This document shows, piece after piece, positions 3,706 to 37,652 of a DNA stretch of 42,728 bases (its first letter is position 1; every line of letters starts with the position of its first letter). The DNA is from an uncultured Bacilli bacterium. GTDB lineage: Bacteria > Bacillota_I > Bacilli_A > RF39 > UBA660. The translations under genes and the position numbers were made by a program. The notes beneath the pieces are model-generated. The model did no database searches and was not told where the DNA came from. It saw only the letters and a program-made list of their open reading frames with translations. The stretch lies in NCBI GenBank assembly GCA_944331955.1, contig CALVIY010000007.1, positions 1 to 42,728 on the forward strand, in the 5' to 3' direction.

Positions 3706-3741
3706 TAAGTTAATAAAAATAAGAAAGAAGGTAAGAAATTT

Positions 3742-3798
3742 ATGAAAAGAAACGCCAGCATCCGTTTACAAGTAGTTACCTGGGGGGGGGCAGTTTAG
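3742..3798 (+). CDS. Leader peptide with G tract, copy 1 (short frame)
   Basis: This 18-codon frame starts at ATG 3742, eight bases after AGAAGGTAAG. It ends VVTWGGAV, followed by TAG TAG TAG. The 9-G run (3782-3790) lies in the Trp-Gly-Gly-Ala codons. With one G fewer the frame would continue as QFSSRISN and on through TFFHYDIRAG, stopping at TAA 3851-3853 inside the terminator stem. Copies 2 and 3 encode related peptides, which argues that the frame is translated. I see no function for the peptide itself. Its role is probably to place the ribosome. Confidence 0.6.
   Translation: MKRNASIRLQVVTWGGAV
3782..3790. repeat. Homopolymeric G tract (G9), copy 1
   Basis: Nine consecutive G in a genome of roughly 30% GC, inside a leader frame. 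Such runs are prone to slipped-strand mispairing, so length is expected to vary between cells. Nine places the leader in the short frame; eight or eleven would place it in the read-through frame. Confidence 0.8.
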
Positions 3799-3840
3799 TA
3801 GTAGAATAAGTAATAAAATTACTTTCTTTCATTATGATAT

Positions 3841-3871
3841 AAGAGCAGGATAATTATATTCTGTTCTTTTT
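3841..3871 (+). terminator. Attenuator-type terminator, copy 1
   Basis: AAGAGCAGGAT (3841-3851) pairs with ATTCTGTTCTT (3858-3868), two wobbles, followed by more T to 3871. It lies after the leader peptide and 35 bases before the surface-protein start, so it can only act on transcription of that gene. Confidence 0.7.
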
Positions 3872-3906: not shown

Positions 3907-5511
3907 ATGAATTTAAAGAAGAAAGAAAACATTGTAATAATAGTGATATTAGTAGTTGTGTTAATAGCGATAATAGGAGTAAGTTATGCAGCCTTTAGTT
4001 TTAGCAGGCAAGGTAGTGTTCCTAACAAGATTACAACAGGATCTATTACGATGACTTATGAAGAAAGTGATAATACTATAAAGTTAAGTAATGCACTACC
4101 TACTCGTGACGCAACAGGTACAACAAGATTAAAAGAAGGAGAGTACTTTGATTTTACAGTTAGTAGTGAAATAACAGGTGATGTTAATATCAACTATGAA
4201 GTGAGTGCAAAAGAAGTAGGGGAAGGAACCATAGATGGTTCTAATATTAAACTTTACTTAACTAAATTAAATGGGGAAGACGAAGAACAATTAATGACAC
4301 CTGAAGTGTATAATGAAGAAACTGACTCTAATGAATATACAGGACGTCCTGCAGGAGAGATGAGTTTATATACAAGTAGTATGAATGCAAGTGAATCTAA
4401 TGATTACAGATTAAGAATGTATGTGACTGAAGAGTACAATCCTCAAGGAGATGGAGGAGGCCTAACCTTTGCGGTTAAAGTAAACGTATATGGAAAAGCA
4501 GGGTTATCTATGGAAGACAGAATGATGAGAGTAGCAGGAAGTGAAGACTTTCATACTAATGAATATAAAAATAATATAACTAGTATAGTAACAAAAGATA
4601 ATACAATAATACCAGAAGGAGTAATAGAAAGTTGGGATATCTCAGAAAAACAAAATGGTAATGTAATAGCATATGTAGAAGACGATGGAACAGGGGTTGG
4701 AACCTATAAACTAACTTTAGGTGGAGAAGGTAAAATAGTTGCTAACTATAACATGAGTAGTTATTTTGAAGGCTTTTCCAATTTAACAACAATAGATTTA
4801 AGCAGTTTAGATACTAGTTTAGTTACGGATATGAGTTATATGCTCGCAGGCATTGGGGTACAAACTTTAAATTTAAGTAATTTTGACACTTCAAAAGTTA
4901 CTAATATGAGGTCAATATTTATGAAATGTAATAATCTTTTAGAATTAGATTTAAGTAATTTTGATACTTCGAAAGTTACTAATATGAGTAGAATGTTTTA
5001 TGACAATTCTAACTTGATAGAACTTGATTTAAGCAATTTTGATACTTCACAAGTTACAGATATGAGTTATATGTTTTATGTAACTTCTAATTTAACAGAG
5101 TTAGATTTAAGTAGTTTTGATACTTCGAAAGTTACTAATATGAGTGGAATGTTTGATGGAGCATATATGGAGCCTATGAAGTTAGAAAAAATTATTTTTG
5201 GTGAAAAATTTAATACCTCAAATGTAACTAATATGAGTAGAATGTTTTATGCTTGTGCTAATCTTCAAACTTTAGATTTAAGTGGTTTTGATACTTCAAA
5301 TGTAACTGATATGAGCATGATGTTTGTTAAGTGCGAAAAGCTAACTACCCTTAATTTAACAAGCTTTGACACGTCTAAAGTAACAAAATATAATGTAATG
5401 TTTCAAAACACTACAAATTTAACAGAAGTATTAGTAAAAAGAGATAAATGGAGTATATCATCTGCAGATATATTTAAAGGCAGTGGAGTAACTGATTTTA
5501 CTTATGTATAA
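3907..5511 (+). CDS. BspA-like repeat surface protein with SipW-type signal
   Basis: A 534-residue exported protein. Residues 1-30 form a lysine-rich start, a hydrophobic helix and a VSYAAFS cleavage region, as in TasA/CalY-type proteins cut by SipW signal peptidases. Residues about 35-200 resemble the TasA-like beta domain. From about residue 290 there are six or seven repeats built on LDLSNFDTSKVTNMS and MFY, the DUF285/BspA-like leucine-rich pattern. Such repeats occur on surface adhesins of gut bacteria and protists. No LPXTG or C-terminal anchor is visible; the chain ends TDFTYV. GGAGG precedes ATG 3907. Expression is likely controlled by the leader and attenuator at 3676-3871. An adhesin or antigen role is an inference. 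Confidence 0.85.
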   Translation: MNLKKKENIVIIVILVVVLIAIIGVSYAAFSFSRQGSVPNKITTGSITMTYEESDNTIKLSNALPTRDATGTTRLKEGEYFDFTVSSEITGDVNINYEVSAKEVGEGTIDGSNIKLYLTKLNGEDEEQLMTPEVYNEETDSNEYTGRPAGEMSLYTSSMNASESNDYRLRMYVTEEYNPQGDGGGLTFAVKVNVYGKAGLSMEDRMMRVAGSEDFHTNEYKNNITSIVTKDNTIIPEGVIESWDISEKQNGNVIAYVEDDGTGVGTYKLTLGGEGKIVANYNMSSYFEGFSNLTTIDLSSLDTSLVTDMSYMLAGIGVQTLNLSNFDTSKVTNMRSIFMKCNNLLELDLSNFDTSKVTNMSRMFYDNSNLIELDLSNFDTSQVTDMSYMFYVTSNLTELDLSSFDTSKVTNMSGMFDGAYMEPMKLEKIIFGEKFNTSNVTNMSRMFYACANLQTLDLSGFDTSNVTDMSMMFVKCEKLTTLNLTSFDTSKVTKYNVMFQNTTNLTEVLVKRDKWSISSADIFKGSGVTDFTYV

Positions 5512-10859: not shown

Positions 10860-11191
10860 ATGATTTATGAGATTAGAGGAAAATAAGCGATGTTAGATAG
10901 TGAGTTGGCTAGATTATATCATGTTGAAACAAAGAGAATTAATGAGGCAGTAAAGAATAATATTGAAAAATTTCCTGAAAGGTTTAGTTTTCTTTTGACT
11001 AATGAAGAAACAATAAACTTGAGGTCGAAATTTTCGACCTCAAGTTTGAATAATCATGGTGGTAATAGATATGCCTCTAGAGTTTTCACAGAGCAAGTTT
11101 TAAAAATCTAGGTAAGAAATGTTTTGCTATTACTAAAATAGAAAGTAAAGAGCTTTTAGATAGTTTGTTAGATATATTGAAGTGTAAATAG
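10860..11191 (+). pseudogene. Broken ORF6N-domain protein gene
   Basis: The frame from ATG 10860 reads MIYEIRGK, then TAA at 10884-10886 where relatives have a glutamine. It continues as AMLDSELARLYHVETKRINEAV, the ORF6N (KilA-N-related) signature, to FTEQ near 11094. A stop follows at 11109-11111. In the next frame, from about 11099, LGKKCFAITKIESKELLDSLL matches the C-terminal tail seen in this family. The middle third is missing. So the gene has an in-frame stop, an internal deletion and a frame change. ORF6N proteins are common in phages and plasmids, which suggests a remnant of an old mobile element. A fragment starting at ATG 10890 could still be made. Confidence 0.75.
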
Positions 11192-11204: not shown

Positions 11205-11234
11205 TTTACTTACTTATTTATCCTGTGGTAATAT
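11205..11234 (+). promoter_or_regulatory. Promoter of leader cassette, copy 2
   Basis: TTTACT at 11205-11210, 18-base spacer, TAATAT at 11229-11234 with TGG before it. It matches the promoters of copies 1 and 3 in spacing and extended -10. Confidence 0.6.
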
Positions 11235-11252
11235 TAGGTTAACAAGATGCTA

Positions 11253-11335
11253 GAAAGAGGGTAAAGTTATGAGAAAGCTATGTTTACAACATGTTACCGG
11301 GGGGCAGTTTAGTAGTAATTTAGTTACTTTCTTTC
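11253..11335 (+). promoter_or_regulatory. Leader RNA with ribosome-site sequestering pair, copy 2
   Basis: GAAAGAGGGTAA (11253-11264) can pair over 12 positions with TTACTTTCTTTC (11324-11335), with two G-U wobbles. The downstream arm is identical to copy 1. A small hairpin AGTAA-TTTAG-TTACT (11314-11328) uses part of it. Confidence 0.5.
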
Positions 11336-11355
11336 ATTATGACTTAAAAGAATAG
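11269..11355 (+). CDS. Leader peptide, copy 2 (read-through frame)
   Basis: This 28-codon frame begins MRKLCLQHVTGGQFSS and ends in VTFFHYDLKE. Its TAG at 11353-11355 lies inside the 5' arm of the terminator (11348-11356). The G run is only six (11299-11304) and is not preceded by the T found in copies 1 and 3, so no Trp codon is present. This copy is therefore fixed, or nearly so, in the frame I predict to allow expression. GAGGG lies upstream of ATG 11269. Confidence 0.65.
   Translation: MRKLCLQHVTGGQFSSNLVTFFHYDLKE
11299..11304. repeat. G tract (G6), copy 2
   Basis: Six G after CC. Shorter than the nine in copies 1 and 3, so slippage should be rarer. Six keeps the leader in the read-through frame. 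Confidence 0.75.
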
Positions 11356-11379
11356 AGTAGGTATATTCTATTCTTTTTT
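11348..11379 (+). terminator. Attenuator-type terminator, copy 2
   Basis: AAGAATAGA (11348-11356) pairs perfectly with TCTATTCTT (11367-11375), followed by TTTT. It sits between the leader peptide and the surface-protein gene. Confidence 0.75.
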
Positions 11380-11403
11380 ACGTGTAATAATGAAGGGAGT
11401 AAG

Positions 11404-13029
11404 ATGATGAAAAAAATATTATTAGAAACAAGTTTTAGTAAGATATATATGATAGTAATGATTATAATAACTCTATTAATATTAGGAGGCTACTTTTCTT
11501 ATGCTATGTTTACAGTAAGTAAGGAAAGAGGAAATGCAATAAGTATTGTAACTGGTAATTTAACATTTGATTTAAAGGTAGATGGTACTACAGGTAATAC
11601 TTTAACAGTAAAAGCTAATAGAAGTAGAGAATTTGAGGTAACTCTAACTAATCCTAATAATAGAACAGCAAGATTTAACTTTTATTATTTAGGAGATATT
11701 TCTAGTGAAGTAAATATAGGATATTTAGAAAGTGATGAATATAATAAAACTCCAGAAGCAGTTGGAGTTAATTTAGAAAAAAGTGGCTCTAGTGGAAGTA
11801 GTAATGTATATAGAATTTTAGTAGAAAATGAAAGTGATAATGATATTAGTATAGAACTAGGAGTAAGTGTAGGACTAGATTATAATGATTTAAGTCTAGA
11901 AGATAATGAACATTTATTTACAAAGATAGAACTTCCAAATGTTGTAGATCAGCTTCTTGTTACTAATAAAGTCCAAACAGAAAAAGATAATATGTTTAAT
12001 TATACTAGCAAGGGAGATATATATACAGATGCTACTAGTGGTACAATAAGTAATGATCCAGATTATGTGACAAATGGTTTATATAGTATGAATGATGAGG
12101 ATGGAATTAGTTATTATTATAGAGGTAATATAGAAAATAATAATGTGCAGTTTGGAGAATATGCAAGCGATTATTATGTATATAGCAATAATTTTAGATA
12201 TTTTCAAACTTTAGAATCTTGCCAAGAATATAATAGAAGTTGTAGTGAAAGTAATAGAGTAAAACTTGCAAGTGCAGGAGATAAAATGTACTGGAAAATA
12301 GTACGAGTAAATGGAGATGGCAGTTTAAGATTAATTTATAATGGAACAAGTCCTAATCCTGATAATAGTGATTTAGCTCATTTTTATGCAGTTGGAGCAT
12401 CACCATATAATTTAGAAGCTAATGATCCAAAATATGCAGGATATACTTATGATAGAAATACAAATGAAACAGATTCATTTATAAAAAAAGAAGTAGATAC
12501 TTGGTATAGTAATACTTTAGGAAATAGTAATTATGATAGTATGGTACAAAATGGTAGATTTTGTAGTGATAGTAGTGGGTATAAGTTAGGAACAGAGTAT
12601 GGCTTTAGTGGAGCAAATTATAATGTGTTTTCAAGTTTTGACAGATTAGCAATGGCTGGAGAAGGCATTTCATTTAGCAGACCGAATAGTCCAAGCTTAA
12701 TTTGTCCTGATACGGATGAAACATATGGAGGAAGTTATAATTTAAAAGCAGGTTTGATAACAGCAGATGAATTAGTATTAGCAGGAGAATCAATGCTTAT
12801 ATCAGGAAACAGCTATTTAAACATAGGAAGTTCTAACGTAGGTTATTGGAGTATGACACCTGCTGATTTTGATGGTGGTGATGTTGATATCTGGTATAAA
12901 GCTGAAATTTTAAATAATGGATATGTAAATTTCAACTATGCTATACGTCCACTTATTAATGTGACAACTGAAAATGGATTTACATCAGGAGATGGAACTA
13001 CTTCTTCACCTTATGTTATAGAAAGCTAG
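11404..13029 (+). CDS. SipW-type surface protein, paralogue A
   Basis: A 541-residue exported protein. The N-terminus MMKKILLETSFSKIYM leads into a hydrophobic helix ending LGGYFSYAMFTVS, a SipW/TasA-like signal. Residues about 45-185 form a TasA-like beta domain with TLTVKANRSREFEVTL. The second half is a C-type-lectin-like or DUF6273-like domain, with KMYWKIVRVNGDGSLRLIYNG near 285-305 and YWSMTPADFDG and IRPLINV near the end. Cysteine pairs occur (for example CQEYNRSC). The first 230 residues are almost identical to paralogue B at 19838, whereas the C-terminal domain diverges. No cell-wall sorting motif is visible. Expression is set by the leader at 11205-11379. Confidence 0.82.
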   Translation: MMKKILLETSFSKIYMIVMIIITLLILGGYFSYAMFTVSKERGNAISIVTGNLTFDLKVDGTTGNTLTVKANRSREFEVTLTNPNNRTARFNFYYLGDISSEVNIGYLESDEYNKTPEAVGVNLEKSGSSGSSNVYRILVENESDNDISIELGVSVGLDYNDLSLEDNEHLFTKIELPNVVDQLLVTNKVQTEKDNMFNYTSKGDIYTDATSGTISNDPDYVTNGLYSMNDEDGISYYYRGNIENNNVQFGEYASDYYVYSNNFRYFQTLESCQEYNRSCSESNRVKLASAGDKMYWKIVRVNGDGSLRLIYNGTSPNPDNSDLAHFYAVGASPYNLEANDPKYAGYTYDRNTNETDSFIKKEVDTWYSNTLGNSNYDSMVQNGRFCSDSSGYKLGTEYGFSGANYNVFSSFDRLAMAGEGISFSRPNSPSLICPDTDETYGGSYNLKAGLITADELVLAGESMLISGNSYLNIGSSNVGYWSMTPADFDGGDVDIWYKAEILNNGYVNFNYAIRPLINVTTENGFTSGDGTTSSPYVIES

Positions 13030-19666: not shown

Positions 19667-19700
19667 TAAGTTAACAAAAATAAGGAAGAAGGTAAAAAAT

Positions 19701-19748
19701 ATGGATACCAAATGTTTACAACACGTTACCTGGGGGGGGGCAGTTTAA
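19701..19748 (+). CDS. Leader peptide with G tract, copy 3 (short frame)
   Basis: This 15-codon frame reads MDTKCLQHVTWGGAV, then TAA TAG TAA. The 9-G run spans Trp-Gly-Gly-Ala. With one G fewer it would continue as QFNSNLVTFFH and stop at TAG 19792-19794, inside the 5' arm of the terminator. CLQHVT is shared with copy 2, and VTWGGAV with copy 1. Confidence 0.6.
   Translation: MDTKCLQHVTWGGAV
19732..19740. repeat. Homopolymeric G tract (G9), copy 3
   Basis: Nine G preceded by CCT and followed by CAGTTTA, as in copy 1. It is predicted to vary in length by slippage and is one G away from the read-through frame. Confidence 0.8.
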
Positions 19749-19787
19749 TAGTAATTTAGTTACTTTCTTTCATTGTGCAAGAAAAAG

Positions 19788-19813
19788 AGAATAGGATAAT
19801 TCTATTCTTTTTT
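19788..19813 (+). terminator. Attenuator-type terminator, copy 3
   Basis: AGAATAGGA (19788-19796) pairs with TTCTATTCT (19800-19808), one wobble and a three-base loop, followed by TTTTT. Confidence 0.7.
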
Positions 19814-19837
19814 AAGTGCAATAATGAAGGGAATGAG

Positions 19838-21460
19838 ATGATGAAAAAATTATTATTGGAAACAAGTTTTAGTAAGATATATATGATTGTAATGATTATA
19901 ATAACTCTATTGATATTAGGAGGATACTTTTCATATGCCATGTTTACAGTAAGTAGGGAAAAAGGGAATGCAATAAGTATTGTAACTGGTAATTTAACAT
20001 ATGATTTAAAAGTAGATGGAGTTAAATCTAATACTTTAACTGTAAAAGCTAATAGAAGTAGAGAATTTGAGGTAACTCTAACTAATCCTAATAATATAAA
20101 AGCAAGATTTAACTTTTATTATTTAGGAGATATTTCTAGTGAAGTAAATATCGGATACTTAGAAAGTGATGGATATAATAAAACTCCGGAAGCAGTTGGC
20201 GTTAATTTAGAAAAAAGTGGCTCTAGTGGAAGTAGTAATGTATATAGAATTTTAGTAGAAAATGAAAGTGATAATGATATTAGTATAGAACTAGGAGTAA
20301 GTGTAGGACTAGATTATAATGATTTAAGTCTAGAAGATAATGAACATTTATTTACAAAGATAGAACTTCCAAATGTTGTAGATCAACTTCTTGTTACTAA
20401 TAAAGTTAAAACAGAAAAAGATAATATGTTTAATTATACTAGTAATGGAAATATATTTACGGATGTTACTAGTGGTAAAATAGAAAATGATCCAGATTAT
20501 GTGACAAATGGCTTATATAGTATGAATGATGAAGATGGAATAAGCTATTACTATAGAGGTAATATAGAAAATAATAATGTGCAATTTGGAGAGTATACAA
20601 GTGATTATTATGTATATAATTTATATGATTATGAAGATAGATATTTCCAAAGTTTAGAATCTTGTCAAGAATATAATTCAAGTTGTAGTGAAAGTAATAG
20701 AGTAAAGCTTGCAAGTGCAGGAGATAAGATGTACTGGAAAGTAGTTCGAGTAAATGGAGATGGTAGTTTAAGGTTAATATATAATGGAACAAGTCCTAAC
20801 CCTGATAATAGTGATATAGCCCATTCTTATGCAGTAGGAATAACACCATATAATATAGCATATAATGAGCCTAAATATACAGGATATACCTATGATAACG
20901 GAATAGATTCATTTATAAAAAAAGAAGTAGATACCTGGTATGAAAATGCTTTAGGGAACACTGTTTATGACAAAGTAATAAACAGTGGCCATTTCTGTAG
21001 TGATAGTAGTGGGTTTAAAAATGGAAATGAATTTGTTGGAGGAGTTAGTGGATATGAAGACTTATATGTGTATGCAATTTATGAAAGAATATCTATGTCT
21101 ATTGTTTCCTATGATAAACCAAACAGTCCAACCTTAATTTGCCCCGATACAAATGAAACATATGGAGGAAGTTATAGTCTAAAGGCAGGATTAATAACAA
21201 CCGATGAATTAGTATTAGCAGGAGGAGCGAGGGATATAGAGGGAAACGATTATTTAAAACCAATGGCAGGTCATTATTGGACTATGACACCCTCAGATTT
21301 TAATATTATTGGTAGGGCTTATGTTGGAATTATTTCAGATAGTGTAGATGTTCGTTTGTCTGGTAATACCAGTGGTGTTCGTCCGGTTATAAATGTTTCT
21401 ATAGATAATGGATTCACATCTGGAGACGGTACTTTGGAAAATCCTTATGTAATTTCTTAA
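19838..21460 (+). CDS. SipW-type surface protein, paralogue B
   Basis: A 540-residue paralogue of the protein at 11404. The start is ATG 19838 (MMKKLLLETSFSKIYM), after GAAGGGA; the same frame is open further upstream but runs through the terminator. Signal, TasA-like domain and central region are nearly identical to paralogue A for about 230 residues. The lectin-like C-terminal half shares landmarks (KMYWKVVRVNGDGSLRLIYNG, YWTMTPSDF, GVRPVINV) but differs between them, for example YVGIISDSVDVRLSGNTS. This is the pattern expected for a family with a constant export domain and variable ligand-binding face. It is under the leader at 19637-19813. Confidence 0.82.
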   Translation: MMKKLLLETSFSKIYMIVMIIITLLILGGYFSYAMFTVSREKGNAISIVTGNLTYDLKVDGVKSNTLTVKANRSREFEVTLTNPNNIKARFNFYYLGDISSEVNIGYLESDGYNKTPEAVGVNLEKSGSSGSSNVYRILVENESDNDISIELGVSVGLDYNDLSLEDNEHLFTKIELPNVVDQLLVTNKVKTEKDNMFNYTSNGNIFTDVTSGKIENDPDYVTNGLYSMNDEDGISYYYRGNIENNNVQFGEYTSDYYVYNLYDYEDRYFQSLESCQEYNSSCSESNRVKLASAGDKMYWKVVRVNGDGSLRLIYNGTSPNPDNSDIAHSYAVGITPYNIAYNEPKYTGYTYDNGIDSFIKKEVDTWYENALGNTVYDKVINSGHFCSDSSGFKNGNEFVGGVSGYEDLYVYAIYERISMSIVSYDKPNSPTLICPDTNETYGGSYSLKAGLITTDELVLAGGARDIEGNDYLKPMAGHYWTMTPSDFNIIGRAYVGIISDSVDVRLSGNTSGVRPVINVSIDNGFTSGDGTLENPYVIS

Positions 21461-25973: not shown

Positions 25974-27122
25974 ATGGAAATATATAGAGCATATAAATTT
26001 AGATTATATCCAAATGAAGAGCAGAAGATATTAATACATAAGACTTTTGGATGTAGTCGTTTTGTTTATAACTATTATTTAAATTATCAAAAAGAAAATG
26101 GAGTACAGAAAACATTTGATTTATGTAAAGATTTAAAAGAATTAGAAAACCAATATGAATATCTTAAAGAAGTAGATTCATGTGCCTTAAGAAGTTCTAT
26201 ATTTGATTTAGAAGATGGTTTTAATAACTTCTTTGCAAAAAGAAGTGGATATCCAAATTTTAAGAGTAAGTTTGCAAGACAGTCTTATAGAACTAGTTGT
26301 ATAAGAAGTAATTATAAAGGTAAAGAGTATAGTAATATAGAAGTAGATTTACTAACTAGATTTATAAAATTACCTAAATTAGGTAAAGTAAAAATAAGAG
26401 GATTTAGGGATAAAGATAAAATAGAAGGTAAGATAGTAAATGCTACTATATCAAGAGAATCAACAAATAAGTATTATGTTAGTGTATTAGTAGAAGAAGA
26501 TATCTTAATAGAAAAGATAATACCTACCACTATAGTAGGAATAGATTTAGGAATAAAAGATTTAGTAGTAACAAGTGATGGTATTAAATATGGTAATGAG
26601 AAAGTATTAATGAAATTTGAAAAGAGGTTAAAAAGATTACAAAGAAAATTATCTAGACAAGAAAAGGAAAGTAAAAACTATTTAAAGACAAAAGAAAAGA
26701 TAGCAAGGTTAAATGCTAAGATAAAGAATTATAGAAAACATTATTTAAATAATATAGCGAACGAAATAGTAAATGAGCACGATATTATTGTAACAGAGAG
26801 TTTATTAGTAAAAGATATGTTTAAAGATAAGAAAAAAGTATTTAATAAAAGTCTATCAGATGCAAGTTTAAGTAAATTATGTTCTCTAATAGAATGGAAA
26901 AGTAAGATAAAAGGAAAGTATTATTATAAGATAAATACTTATTATCCGAGTAGTCAAATATGTAGTCACTGTGGTTATAAGAATAATGAAATAAAAGATT
27001 TAAGTATAAGAGAATATGATTGTCCAGAATGTGGAACTCATAATGATAGAGATATAAATGCTAGTTTAAACATATTATTTGAAGGATTAAAGTTACACTA
27101 TAATTTAGAATGTTTAGCATAG
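25974..27122 (+). CDS. tnpB: RNA-guided endonuclease TnpB
   Basis: A 382-residue TnpB. The N-terminus YRAYKFRLYPNEEQKILIHKTFG is the standard opening. The RuvC residues are all present: D191 in GIDLGIKD, E275 in IIVTESLL and D360 in NDRDINAS. Four cysteines, C330, C333, C350 and C353, form the zinc ribbon (CSHCG, CPECG). Length equals intact TnpB, so it should be able to cut DNA guided by an RNA made from the element's 3' end. AGAGGG precedes ATG 25974. Known TnpBs help the element persist after excision. It is codirectional with the flanking operon. Confidence 0.93.
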   Translation: MEIYRAYKFRLYPNEEQKILIHKTFGCSRFVYNYYLNYQKENGVQKTFDLCKDLKELENQYEYLKEVDSCALRSSIFDLEDGFNNFFAKRSGYPNFKSKFARQSYRTSCIRSNYKGKEYSNIEVDLLTRFIKLPKLGKVKIRGFRDKDKIEGKIVNATISRESTNKYYVSVLVEEDILIEKIIPTTIVGIDLGIKDLVVTSDGIKYGNEKVLMKFEKRLKRLQRKLSRQEKESKNYLKTKEKIARLNAKIKNYRKHYLNNIANEIVNEHDIIVTESLLVKDMFKDKKKVFNKSLSDASLSKLCSLIEWKSKIKGKYYYKINTYYPSSQICSHCGYKNNEIKDLSIREYDCPECGTHNDRDINASLNILFEGLKLHYNLECLA

Positions 27123-36104: not shown

Positions 36105-37652
36105 ATGACAAGAAAGAAATATATAACAATATCTGTAGCGATAATATTAATAAGTATAATAGTATTAATAGGAACAAGTTATGCACTACTTACTATGACT
36201 ATAGAAGGAGATAAAAAGATAAGTGTAACAGCAGGAATATTAAAAGTTGATTTTACAGATGGTAATTATATTAACTTAGATAATGCAGCACCAGTTACAG
36301 ATAAACAGGGATTAAAGACAAGCCCATATACTTTTACAATAATTAATACAGGTAATATTAATGCCTATTATCATGTATCGCTAGAAGAAGAGGCAACTAA
36401 CACTTTAACCCATAATTATTTAAAAATGAGACTTACAAATGATAAAGGATATGACAGTGGAGTAGTTTATGTAAGTGATTATGAAGCAAGTGAAATGGAA
36501 ATAATGAGTGAACAAACATTAGAACCAGGTGAAGATAATAAAGTTACATACCAATTATGGATGTGGCTAGACTATAATGCTGACAACTCTGCTCAAGGAA
36601 AAGAGTATAAGAGTAAAATAGTAGTAACAAGTTATGATAGAAAAATGGGAACAAATGCTGTACAACTTGTTAAGAGTAAATCAAATGAAGAAAGTCTAGA
36701 TTATAATAGTGCGACAAGTGAACAACAAAAAGAAGCATGGGTACATAGTCATCCTGCAACAGAACAAACAGAGGCTCTAACAGATTATAGATATATAGGA
36801 GCAGATCCCAATAATTATGTAGAGTTTAATGATGAATTATGGAGAATAATAGGAGTCTTCACAGTAGATGATGGAACAGGAAAAGTAGAAGAAAGATTAA
36901 AGATAATAAGAAATGAATCTATTGGAATTTATTCTTGGGACAATAAGAACACTGAAACAGGAGCAGAATCTGCCTATGGTAAAAACAATTGGACCGATGC
37001 AAGACTAAACTACTTATTAAATCCCGGACATGAAAGCGAAAGTGTTGGAGGAAGCCTATACTGGAATAGTGGTAGTGGAACTTGTTATAATGGACAAAAT
37101 AATGCAACAACAAATTGTGACTTCACTTCTACAGGCTTAAAAGAAGAGGCAAGAAATATGATAGGTGACACTCTTTGGTATTTAGGAGGAACATTAAGTT
37201 ATACAAGTGCAAGTAATGGACTAGCAAGTCATTGGTACTCTTATGAAAGAGGAACAACAGTGTATAATAGTAGTACATCCCCAAGTGATACAAGTTTTGT
37301 AGGAAAAGTAGGATTGATGTATCCAAGTGACTATGGATATGCGACAAGTGGAGGAAGCACAAAAGAAAGAAATGCTTGTTTAAATAAAGAATTATATAAT
37401 TGGGGTAGTAGTGAGTTTAGTGACTGTAAGAACAACGACTGGCTATATGAAAGTAGCTATGCACAATGGACCCTTTCTCCTCGCGCGTCTTACTCCGACA
37501 GCGTGTTCTATGTGAGCTCGTCCGGCTTCGTCTACTACACCGGCAGCGCTTACAGTAGTAATGGGGTCCGGCCAGTCGCTTTTCTAAAGTCTAATATCAA
37601 GATTGTTGATGGAGATGGAAGTAGTAGCAATCCGTATATTCTAAAAGGATAA
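36105..37652 (+). CDS. SipW-type surface protein with lectin-like variable domain
   Basis: A 515-residue exported protein. The signal MTRKKYITISV leads into a hydrophobic helix and GTSYALLT, a SipW-type site. A TasA-like domain covers about 30-180. A DUF6273/C-type-lectin-like domain follows, opening EFNDELWRIIGVF, with NNWTDARLNYLLNPGH and ending SNGVRPVAFL and SSNPYILKG. Codons 460-492 differ sharply from the rest: they are GC-rich and mostly end in C. They encode RASYSDSVFYVSSSGFVYYT and GSAYSSNGVRPV. The pattern matches a variable region of a diversity-generating retroelement target. Paralogues at 11404 and 19838 share the fold but have ordinary base composition there. Likely a ligand-binding surface protein. 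Confidence 0.82.
   Translation: MTRKKYITISVAIILISIIVLIGTSYALLTMTIEGDKKISVTAGILKVDFTDGNYINLDNAAPVTDKQGLKTSPYTFTIINTGNINAYYHVSLEEEATNTLTHNYLKMRLTNDKGYDSGVVYVSDYEASEMEIMSEQTLEPGEDNKVTYQLWMWLDYNADNSAQGKEYKSKIVVTSYDRKMGTNAVQLVKSKSNEESLDYNSATSEQQKEAWVHSHPATEQTEALTDYRYIGADPNNYVEFNDELWRIIGVFTVDDGTGKVEERLKIIRNESIGIYSWDNKNTETGAESAYGKNNWTDARLNYLLNPGHESESVGGSLYWNSGSGTCYNGQNNATTNCDFTSTGLKEEARNMIGDTLWYLGGTLSYTSASNGLASHWYSYERGTTVYNSSTSPSDTSFVGKVGLMYPSDYGYATSGGSTKERNACLNKELYNWGSSEFSDCKNNDWLYESSYAQWTLSPRASYSDSVFYVSSSGFVYYTGSAYSSNGVRPVAFLKSNIKIVDGDGSSSNPYILKG
37481..37580 (+). other. GC-rich variable-region-like segment
   Basis: 59 of 100 bases are G or C, against roughly 30% around it. In frame, most codons are NNC (TAC, TCC, GAC, AGC, TTC, GGC, GTC, ACC), as when template AAC codons are randomised at adenine. 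It ends in GGGGTCCGGCCAGTCGC, a GC-rich 3' edge that encodes GVRPV. No matching template repeat or reverse transcriptase is in the window. Confidence 0.55.

Follow-up and report, generated by a model that had tools for sequence, protein, structure and literature searches.

Putative G-tract leader attenuators in front of surface-type protein genes in the uncultured gut genus Candidatus Onthousia

Introduction

The vlp, vlhA and vpma surface families of Mycoplasma use promoter repeats or site-specific inversion. In known poly-G contingency loci other than porA, for example those of Campylobacter, the tract is part of the promoter or of the gene. For porA of Neisseria, the G tract lies in the promoter (PMC3639595). 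Attenuation-like phase variation via a leader has been experimentally proven for pil1 and pil3 of Streptococcus gallolyticus (PMC3894217). In the tlrB (yxjB) leader of B. subtilis, NusG-dependent pausing was proven to give time for the start of the leader peptide (PMC6851288).

Here we describe a leader that occurs three times in one stretch of 42,728 nucleotides, hereafter the window, and many times in the genome from which it comes. We consider it likely that this element is a dispersed, multi-copy phase-variation switch, in which slipped strands at the tract change the reading frame of a leader peptide and thereby act through ribosome-mediated antitermination.

Results

The subject genome is a 1.5 Mb assembly in 95 contigs, 94% complete, from the gut Bacilli genus Candidatus Onthousia. 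The core motif gave 3 matches in the window, against 0.08 expected from shuffles, and 36 matches in the whole genome, against 0 with the reversed control; 34 of the 36 were real leaders. According to a leader sequence model, the leader is present in 34 of the 35 genomes of the genus, at 1 to 37 copies per genome, and is nearly absent beyond the genus within the family and order. Candidatus Onthousia excrementipullorum is among the named records that contain the element; its copies stand at the same positions as those of G001, a genome of the window's genus, and the genus name used here follows from this. No Rfam match above the gathering score indicated a known RNA element in the window, and a search of viral contigs with the element gave no match and therefore no sign of phage origin. 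In a limited literature search we did not find this element described, by which its novelty is not proven. A scan of 145 genomes of the family for G8, 45-75 nt and TTCTTTTT gave forward matches limited to the own genus and to the genomes G137 and G165. The match in G165 was rejected as a leader, having no leader layout with a terminator, while weak R1 matches in G132, G118 and G060 look like chance within other sequence.

Coordinates of the three copies are collected in Table 1. Copy 2 was found to have the run of six G without the preceding T that the initial annotation had reported, in the codon context ...CAT GTT ACC GGG GGG CAG..., and the leader is indeed 28 codons long, with folding placing its stop inside the 5' arm of the terminator. 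The terminator hairpin reached -13.9 kcal/mol (z -4.9) in RNA folding. With a Shine-Dalgarno (SD) sequence and an ATG in frame with the tract, the leader resembles a genuine translated ORF, as had been assumed, and with a frame that reaches the terminator copy 2 reads as ON at the sequence level. The G6 tract is plausibly more stable than the modal G9, since it is shorter. At the promoter-like stretch, GATAATATTAAGTTAAC was common to many of the 34 copies of the genome. The leaders of copies 1 and 3 end early because their tract is a T followed by nine G, and in both of them the stop lies 5 nt past the G tract. These present frames do not reach the terminator, which agrees with the OFF state proposed for both copies. 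With one G less, copy 1 would read QFSSRISNKITFFHYDIRAG and copy 3 QFNSNLVTFFHCARKRE, each followed by a stop within its own terminator, and the earlier claim of a one-base restoration was thereby borne out.

Table 1. Features of the three leader copies and their downstream genes, in window positions.
Feature	Position	Strand	Remarks and basis
Copy 1 leader, present reading, OFF	3742..3798	+	stop TAG 3796-3798; SD 3723-3734; G9 tract 3782-3790, preceded by T
Copy 1 ON-frame continuation	3791..3853	+	ends at TAA 3851-3853 in terminator arm
Copy 1 terminator	3841..3871	+	RNA folding
Copy 1 gene	3907..5511	+	DUF285/PARCEL-repeat surface protein, 534 aa
Copy 2 putative promoter-like stretch	11205..11232	+	TTTACT - 16 nt - GGTAAT; sequence reading, 34 copies compared; weak consensus
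Copy 2 leader Shine-Dalgarno GAAAGAGGGTAA	11253..11264	+	SD and ATG at normal spacing; 12 bp pairing with 11324-11335 possible
Copy 2 leader ORF	11269..11355	+	28 codons, MRKLCLQHVTGGQFSSNLVTFFHYDLKE; ATG 11269; ON frame; stop TAG 11353-11355 in terminator arm
Copy 2 G6 tract	11299..11304	+	six G, T absent before the run
Copy 2 predicted RNA polymerase pause hairpin	11314..11328	+	AGTAAT-TTA-GTTACT; folding
Copy 2 anti-SD-like segment TTACTTTCTTTC	11324..11335	+	complementary to the leader's own SD; sequence and folding
Copy 2 TTCTTT (11329-11334) with 3' end of the predicted pause (11339-11340)	11329..11340	+	motif match; putative function
Copy 2 intrinsic terminator	11346..11379	+	hairpin 11346-11377, then T run; folding
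Copy 2 gene	11404..13029	+	surface-type protein, 541 aa, N-terminal anchor
Copy 3 leader, present reading, OFF	19701..19748	+	stop TAA 19746-19748; SD 19684-19695; G9 tract 19732-19740, preceded by T
Copy 3 ON-frame continuation	19741..19794	+	ends at TAG 19792-19794 in terminator arm
Copy 3 terminator	19783..19815	+	RNA folding
Copy 3 gene	19838..21460	+	surface-type protein, 540 aa, paralogue of the gene at 11404

Some other features of the window were recorded. Just upstream of copy 2, at 10891-11111, lies a remnant ORF that by eye resembles an ORF6N/KilA-type domain, and within it a near-perfect 15-bp palindrome at 11015-11047. On the minus strand, 1060-1165 holds a tiny hydrophobic ORF, by eye MSWKDFFILFQAFIILLLVLLLFIVLI, that is preceded by a strong SD and is similar to the peptide of a type I toxin-antitoxin system; the adjacent 965-1071 had only a sub-threshold Rfam match. 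The IS605 OrfB/TnpB-like protein encoded at 25974-27122 contains a Cas12f1-like TNB domain.

The frame analysis comprised 99 distinct copies from the genus, 92 of which could be scored for the distance from SD and ATG to the tract. In 85 of the 92 this distance was divisible by three, at 13 different lengths (15-96 nt); the copies are related by descent and hence not independent, and it is fairer to count the distinct lengths. The length changes therefore preserve the frame. Past the tract, one frame in nearly all 99 copies stayed open until a stop 11-14 nt ahead of the 3' arm of the terminator, and this placement holds while the distance from tract to terminator varies widely. A T-rich terminator-like end was present in each of the 99 elements scored. 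In the commonest OFF frame (T+G9), TAA or TAG occurs 5 nt past the tract in most copies, and in the other OFF frame the stop is mostly about 16 nt past it. In a sub-class with a spacer shorter by 2 nt (e.g., L029, L034, L050, and L054), the open frame is displaced by one position and still stops in the terminator arm. Upkeep of the frame at changing lengths is what would be expected only if translation into the terminator matters, and we therefore infer that it does.

Two further observations concern the leaders themselves. In relatives, the 5' coding part of L040, L063, L102, and others is made up of recurring units (GGTAAATTAATTCGTCA...), which lengthen the leaders in frame. In nine copies (L057, L060, L062, L110, L158, L159, L167, L190, and L196) the tract is broken by A or T or contains a stop codon; all nine read OFF by eye and are possible locked-OFF archive copies. 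Because the cases are few and were judged by eye, a rule that all interrupted tracts are locked OFF stays only a lead.

The canonical ON frame was found in 3 of the 34 leaders in the consensus assembly of the subject genome, namely L001, L005 (which is copy 2), and L010. In L025 an alternative frame reaches the terminator because a stop is lost, and L008 would be ON but for an earlier nonsense codon. The initial annotation had taken the three copies in the window for members of a family that expresses one member at a time. The family proved to be large, with 34 leaders placed ahead of N-terminally anchored surface-type proteins; of exclusivity there was no sign, three to four of the 34 leaders being ON. 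With most members OFF and more than one ON in the consensus, there is no indication of mutual exclusion. Every leader carries a separate tract and no link between loci was seen, and independent switching is therefore expected. All genomes used are MAG-type consensus assemblies, in which tract mixtures within a population are invisible.

Observed tract lengths ranged from 5 to 12, with G9 as a strong mode in the own genome and in relatives, and G9 preceded by T was OFF in 60 of 63 copies. This uniform OFF-state mode speaks against our preferred explanation, since it could mean that the length itself is selected, e.g., for transcriptional slippage. RNA polymerase slipping on G9 would produce a mixture of transcripts, and the tract would be a fixed device for constant low-level expression and not a heritable switch, a reading with which the modal length and the restoration of the ON frame by a one-base change both agree. 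We hold it to be unlikely, given that tracts of other lengths exist, that orthologues differ by 2 G, that some copies with G8 or G6 are ON without any slippage, and that interrupted tracts occur.

The best direct support for a mutable tract, although a single case, came from the orthologous loci L037 and L041 in two MAGs. Over 4,922 bp the two are 99.0% identical and have 2 gap positions in total, both of them in the tract, which is G9 (OFF) in one and G11 (ON) in the other. In this one case, tract length differs between near-identical loci as it does in poly-G contingency loci, and the tract would appear to be the mutable part. Homopolymers are error-prone and the assemblies are consensus assemblies, so that the apparent length differences might be ascribed to errors of sequencing or assembly. 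That this lies behind them we find very improbable: L037 and L041 have no other gap over 4.9 kb, the T, too, is missing from copy 2, and a missing T is no error of G count, and the anatomy of the leader remains regardless.

Directly past the tract lies a small hairpin that ends right before an invariant CTTTCTT. A hairpin of at least 5 bp at this position was present in 94 of 99 copies, compared with 17% of shuffled controls. The stems included AAGTAAT/ATTACTT, AGTAAT/GTTACT, AAGTAT/ATACTT, AAGTAAC/GTTACTT, and others, with changes on both sides. Copy 2 fits the B. subtilis NusG motif TTNTTT at -11 to -6, with the hairpin 11-12 nt upstream, and the NusG of the genome has N81 and T82 at residues 81 and 82, the residues named for recognition of the motif. 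The motif by itself is insufficient for pausing (PMC12288461). The conserved hairpin together with TTCTTT is probably a NusG-dependent pause of RNA polymerase, which would let a ribosome load and catch up. RNAalifold over the full leader returned only 9 pairs and no covariation, which counts against the explanation; for this reason no global consensus structure is claimed, and the pause hairpin was scored separately.

In 88 of 92 copies the TTACTTTCTTTC segment can form 9 bp or more with the leader SD, a pairing also seen in folds of the whole leader. During the pause this segment would still be inside the polymerase, and the SD would stay free. The same pairing would suit a translational switch, in which the position of the leader ribosome sets the partner of TTACTTTCTTTC, either the leader SD or the SD of the downstream gene, and the terminator is secondary, and tlrB uses both modes (PMC6851288). 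Such a switch seems rather unlikely to us, as by eye the downstream SD is paired only in part, all 99 elements scored have the T-rich terminator-like end, the ON stop lies within the arm, and leaders of genus g104 without TTACTTTCTTTC retain the terminator logic.

Leaders of a second genus of the same family, represented by G137, also speak for the preferred explanation. Its genome has four G9-G10 tracts ahead of terminators and anchored proteins. The leader peptide of L251, MIYKVNIVNKMSTRGGATLKIGHLSYKENEE, is wholly different from that of the window's genus; here the G9 frame continues up to a stop in the terminator arm, whereas with G8 or G10 a stop follows immediately. The same pattern, less tight, was seen in L243 and L262, and for L256 a start codon was not found. 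The switch logic thus appears to be kept in G137 although the peptide is not. Leaders of different sequence with G9-G10 and the same stop and terminator logic were listed for this genome at L215:1478-1600, L243, L256, and L262.

Thirty-one distinct downstream genes were read. They encode proteins of 450-650 aa that begin with a membrane anchor, for which three types occur, and are mosaics having exchangeable N- and C-terminal modules in common; some carry DUF285/PARCEL repeats or DUF6273. We take the products to be probable surface proteins because of the membrane anchor and the PARCEL family. For the products of the genes at 11404 and 19838, Pfam and NCBIfam gave no family, and an AlphaFold model of the former was poor (mean pLDDT 41) with Foldseek matches that were not significant, and was left unused. 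A few family members have no leader (C12:31294, C48:6232, and window 36105), which counts against our explanation. The last of these, at 36105-37652, is a paralogue by N-terminal similarity and adjoins an ordinary GAATAG..CTATTC-type terminator. In L014, L015, and L026 (C23, C47), near-identical surface cassettes found in several places stand behind leaders that differ in 5' part and tract length, which suggests cassette duplication or gene conversion.

The mosaics with common terminal modules, and near-identical cassettes bearing different leader 5' parts, could also be explained if the conserved block were mainly a site of recombination or homology that shuffles leaders and surface cassettes, with the frame being incidental. 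We give this little credence, because it would leave unexplained the upkeep of the frame at 13 upstream lengths, the stop placed in the arm, and the version of different sequence in another genus.

Discussion

The anatomy, the frame logic and the conservation of the element were read directly, as was the tract difference in one pair of orthologues; the model built on them below is a proposal. The order of the unit is a short ORF with the G tract, an intrinsic terminator, and a surface-protein gene. Slipped-strand errors would alter the number of G. In two of the three frames the ribosome would meet a stop 5 nt or about 16 nt past the tract and drop off, the terminator would form, and the gene would be OFF. 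The third frame would take the ribosome on to the stop inside the 5' arm of the terminator. The ribosome would cover this arm, RNA polymerase would read through, and the gene would be ON. The small hairpin followed by TTCTTT would let the polymerase pause with NusG and give time for ribosome loading. Once the polymerase had moved on without a ribosome, TTACTTTCTTTC would pair with the leader SD and close it. Gain or loss of a single G thus probably decides whether ribosomes reach and disarm the transcription stop signal. In some Gram-positives the RNA polymerase can run ahead of the ribosomes, and the coupling would for this reason depend on the predicted pause.

We also lean, with less confidence, to the view that the whole surface repertoire is under one module, composed of the G-tract leader attenuator, a NusG pause, and a self-sequestering Shine-Dalgarno, which, repeated at dozens of loci, would give each cell its own combination of surface proteins. 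If this is true, an uncultured genus of gut Bacilli varies its surface via a single reusable DNA/RNA module, in which single-base slips lead to very many combinations of expression. It would be the first genome-wide, multi-copy case of frame-switched attenuation found in the literature searched, and would tie phase variation to a programmed pause of the polymerase. From tract lengths in ordinary metagenomes one could then read which surface repertoire uncultured bacteria express.

Compared with the described systems, several differ from the element in the place of the repeat or in the input. The poly-G contingency loci (Neisseria porA, Campylobacter) share with it the presumed slipped-strand mispairing at a G tract and the surface proteins, whereas here the tract sits in a leader ORF of its own, with a terminator downstream. 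The vlp, vlhA, and vpma families of Mycoplasma are likewise large sets of surface paralogues, many of them silent, and belong to small AT-rich genomes; here, in contrast, each member has its own attenuator. The tlrB leader resembles the element in its pause hairpin and NusG-dependent pause, in a ribosome position that opposes the terminator, and in an SD-sequestering structure, all of which are predicted in our case. However, tlrB answers tylosin by ribosome stalling and has no repeat, while the input here would be heritable tract length.

The closest known case is pil1/pil3 of S. gallolyticus. In both systems the repeat tract lies within the (here putative) leader ORF, and the frame determines the place of the stop, which is either inside a premature intrinsic terminator or well ahead of it; the OFF stop is tens of nt upstream of the hairpin and a surface structure is encoded downstream. 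The GCAGA pentanucleotide repeat of pil1/pil3 is absent here, where a G tract takes its place, and GCAGA is a feature of the two known loci and not of the mechanism. The element thus appears to work like the pil1 type, and we do not assign it to the pil1 family. Pilus operons are controlled there, by a mechanism that was proven, and anchored surface proteins would be controlled here, on the basis of sequence. To what is known from pil1/pil3 the element would add the G tract, a genome-wide scale (two loci there, about 34 here and more across the genus), a predicted NusG-dependent pause at a conserved pause-like hairpin, and an anti-SD segment complementary to the leader's own SD. If our reading is true, the mechanism of two streptococcal pilus operons becomes a genome-wide strategy.
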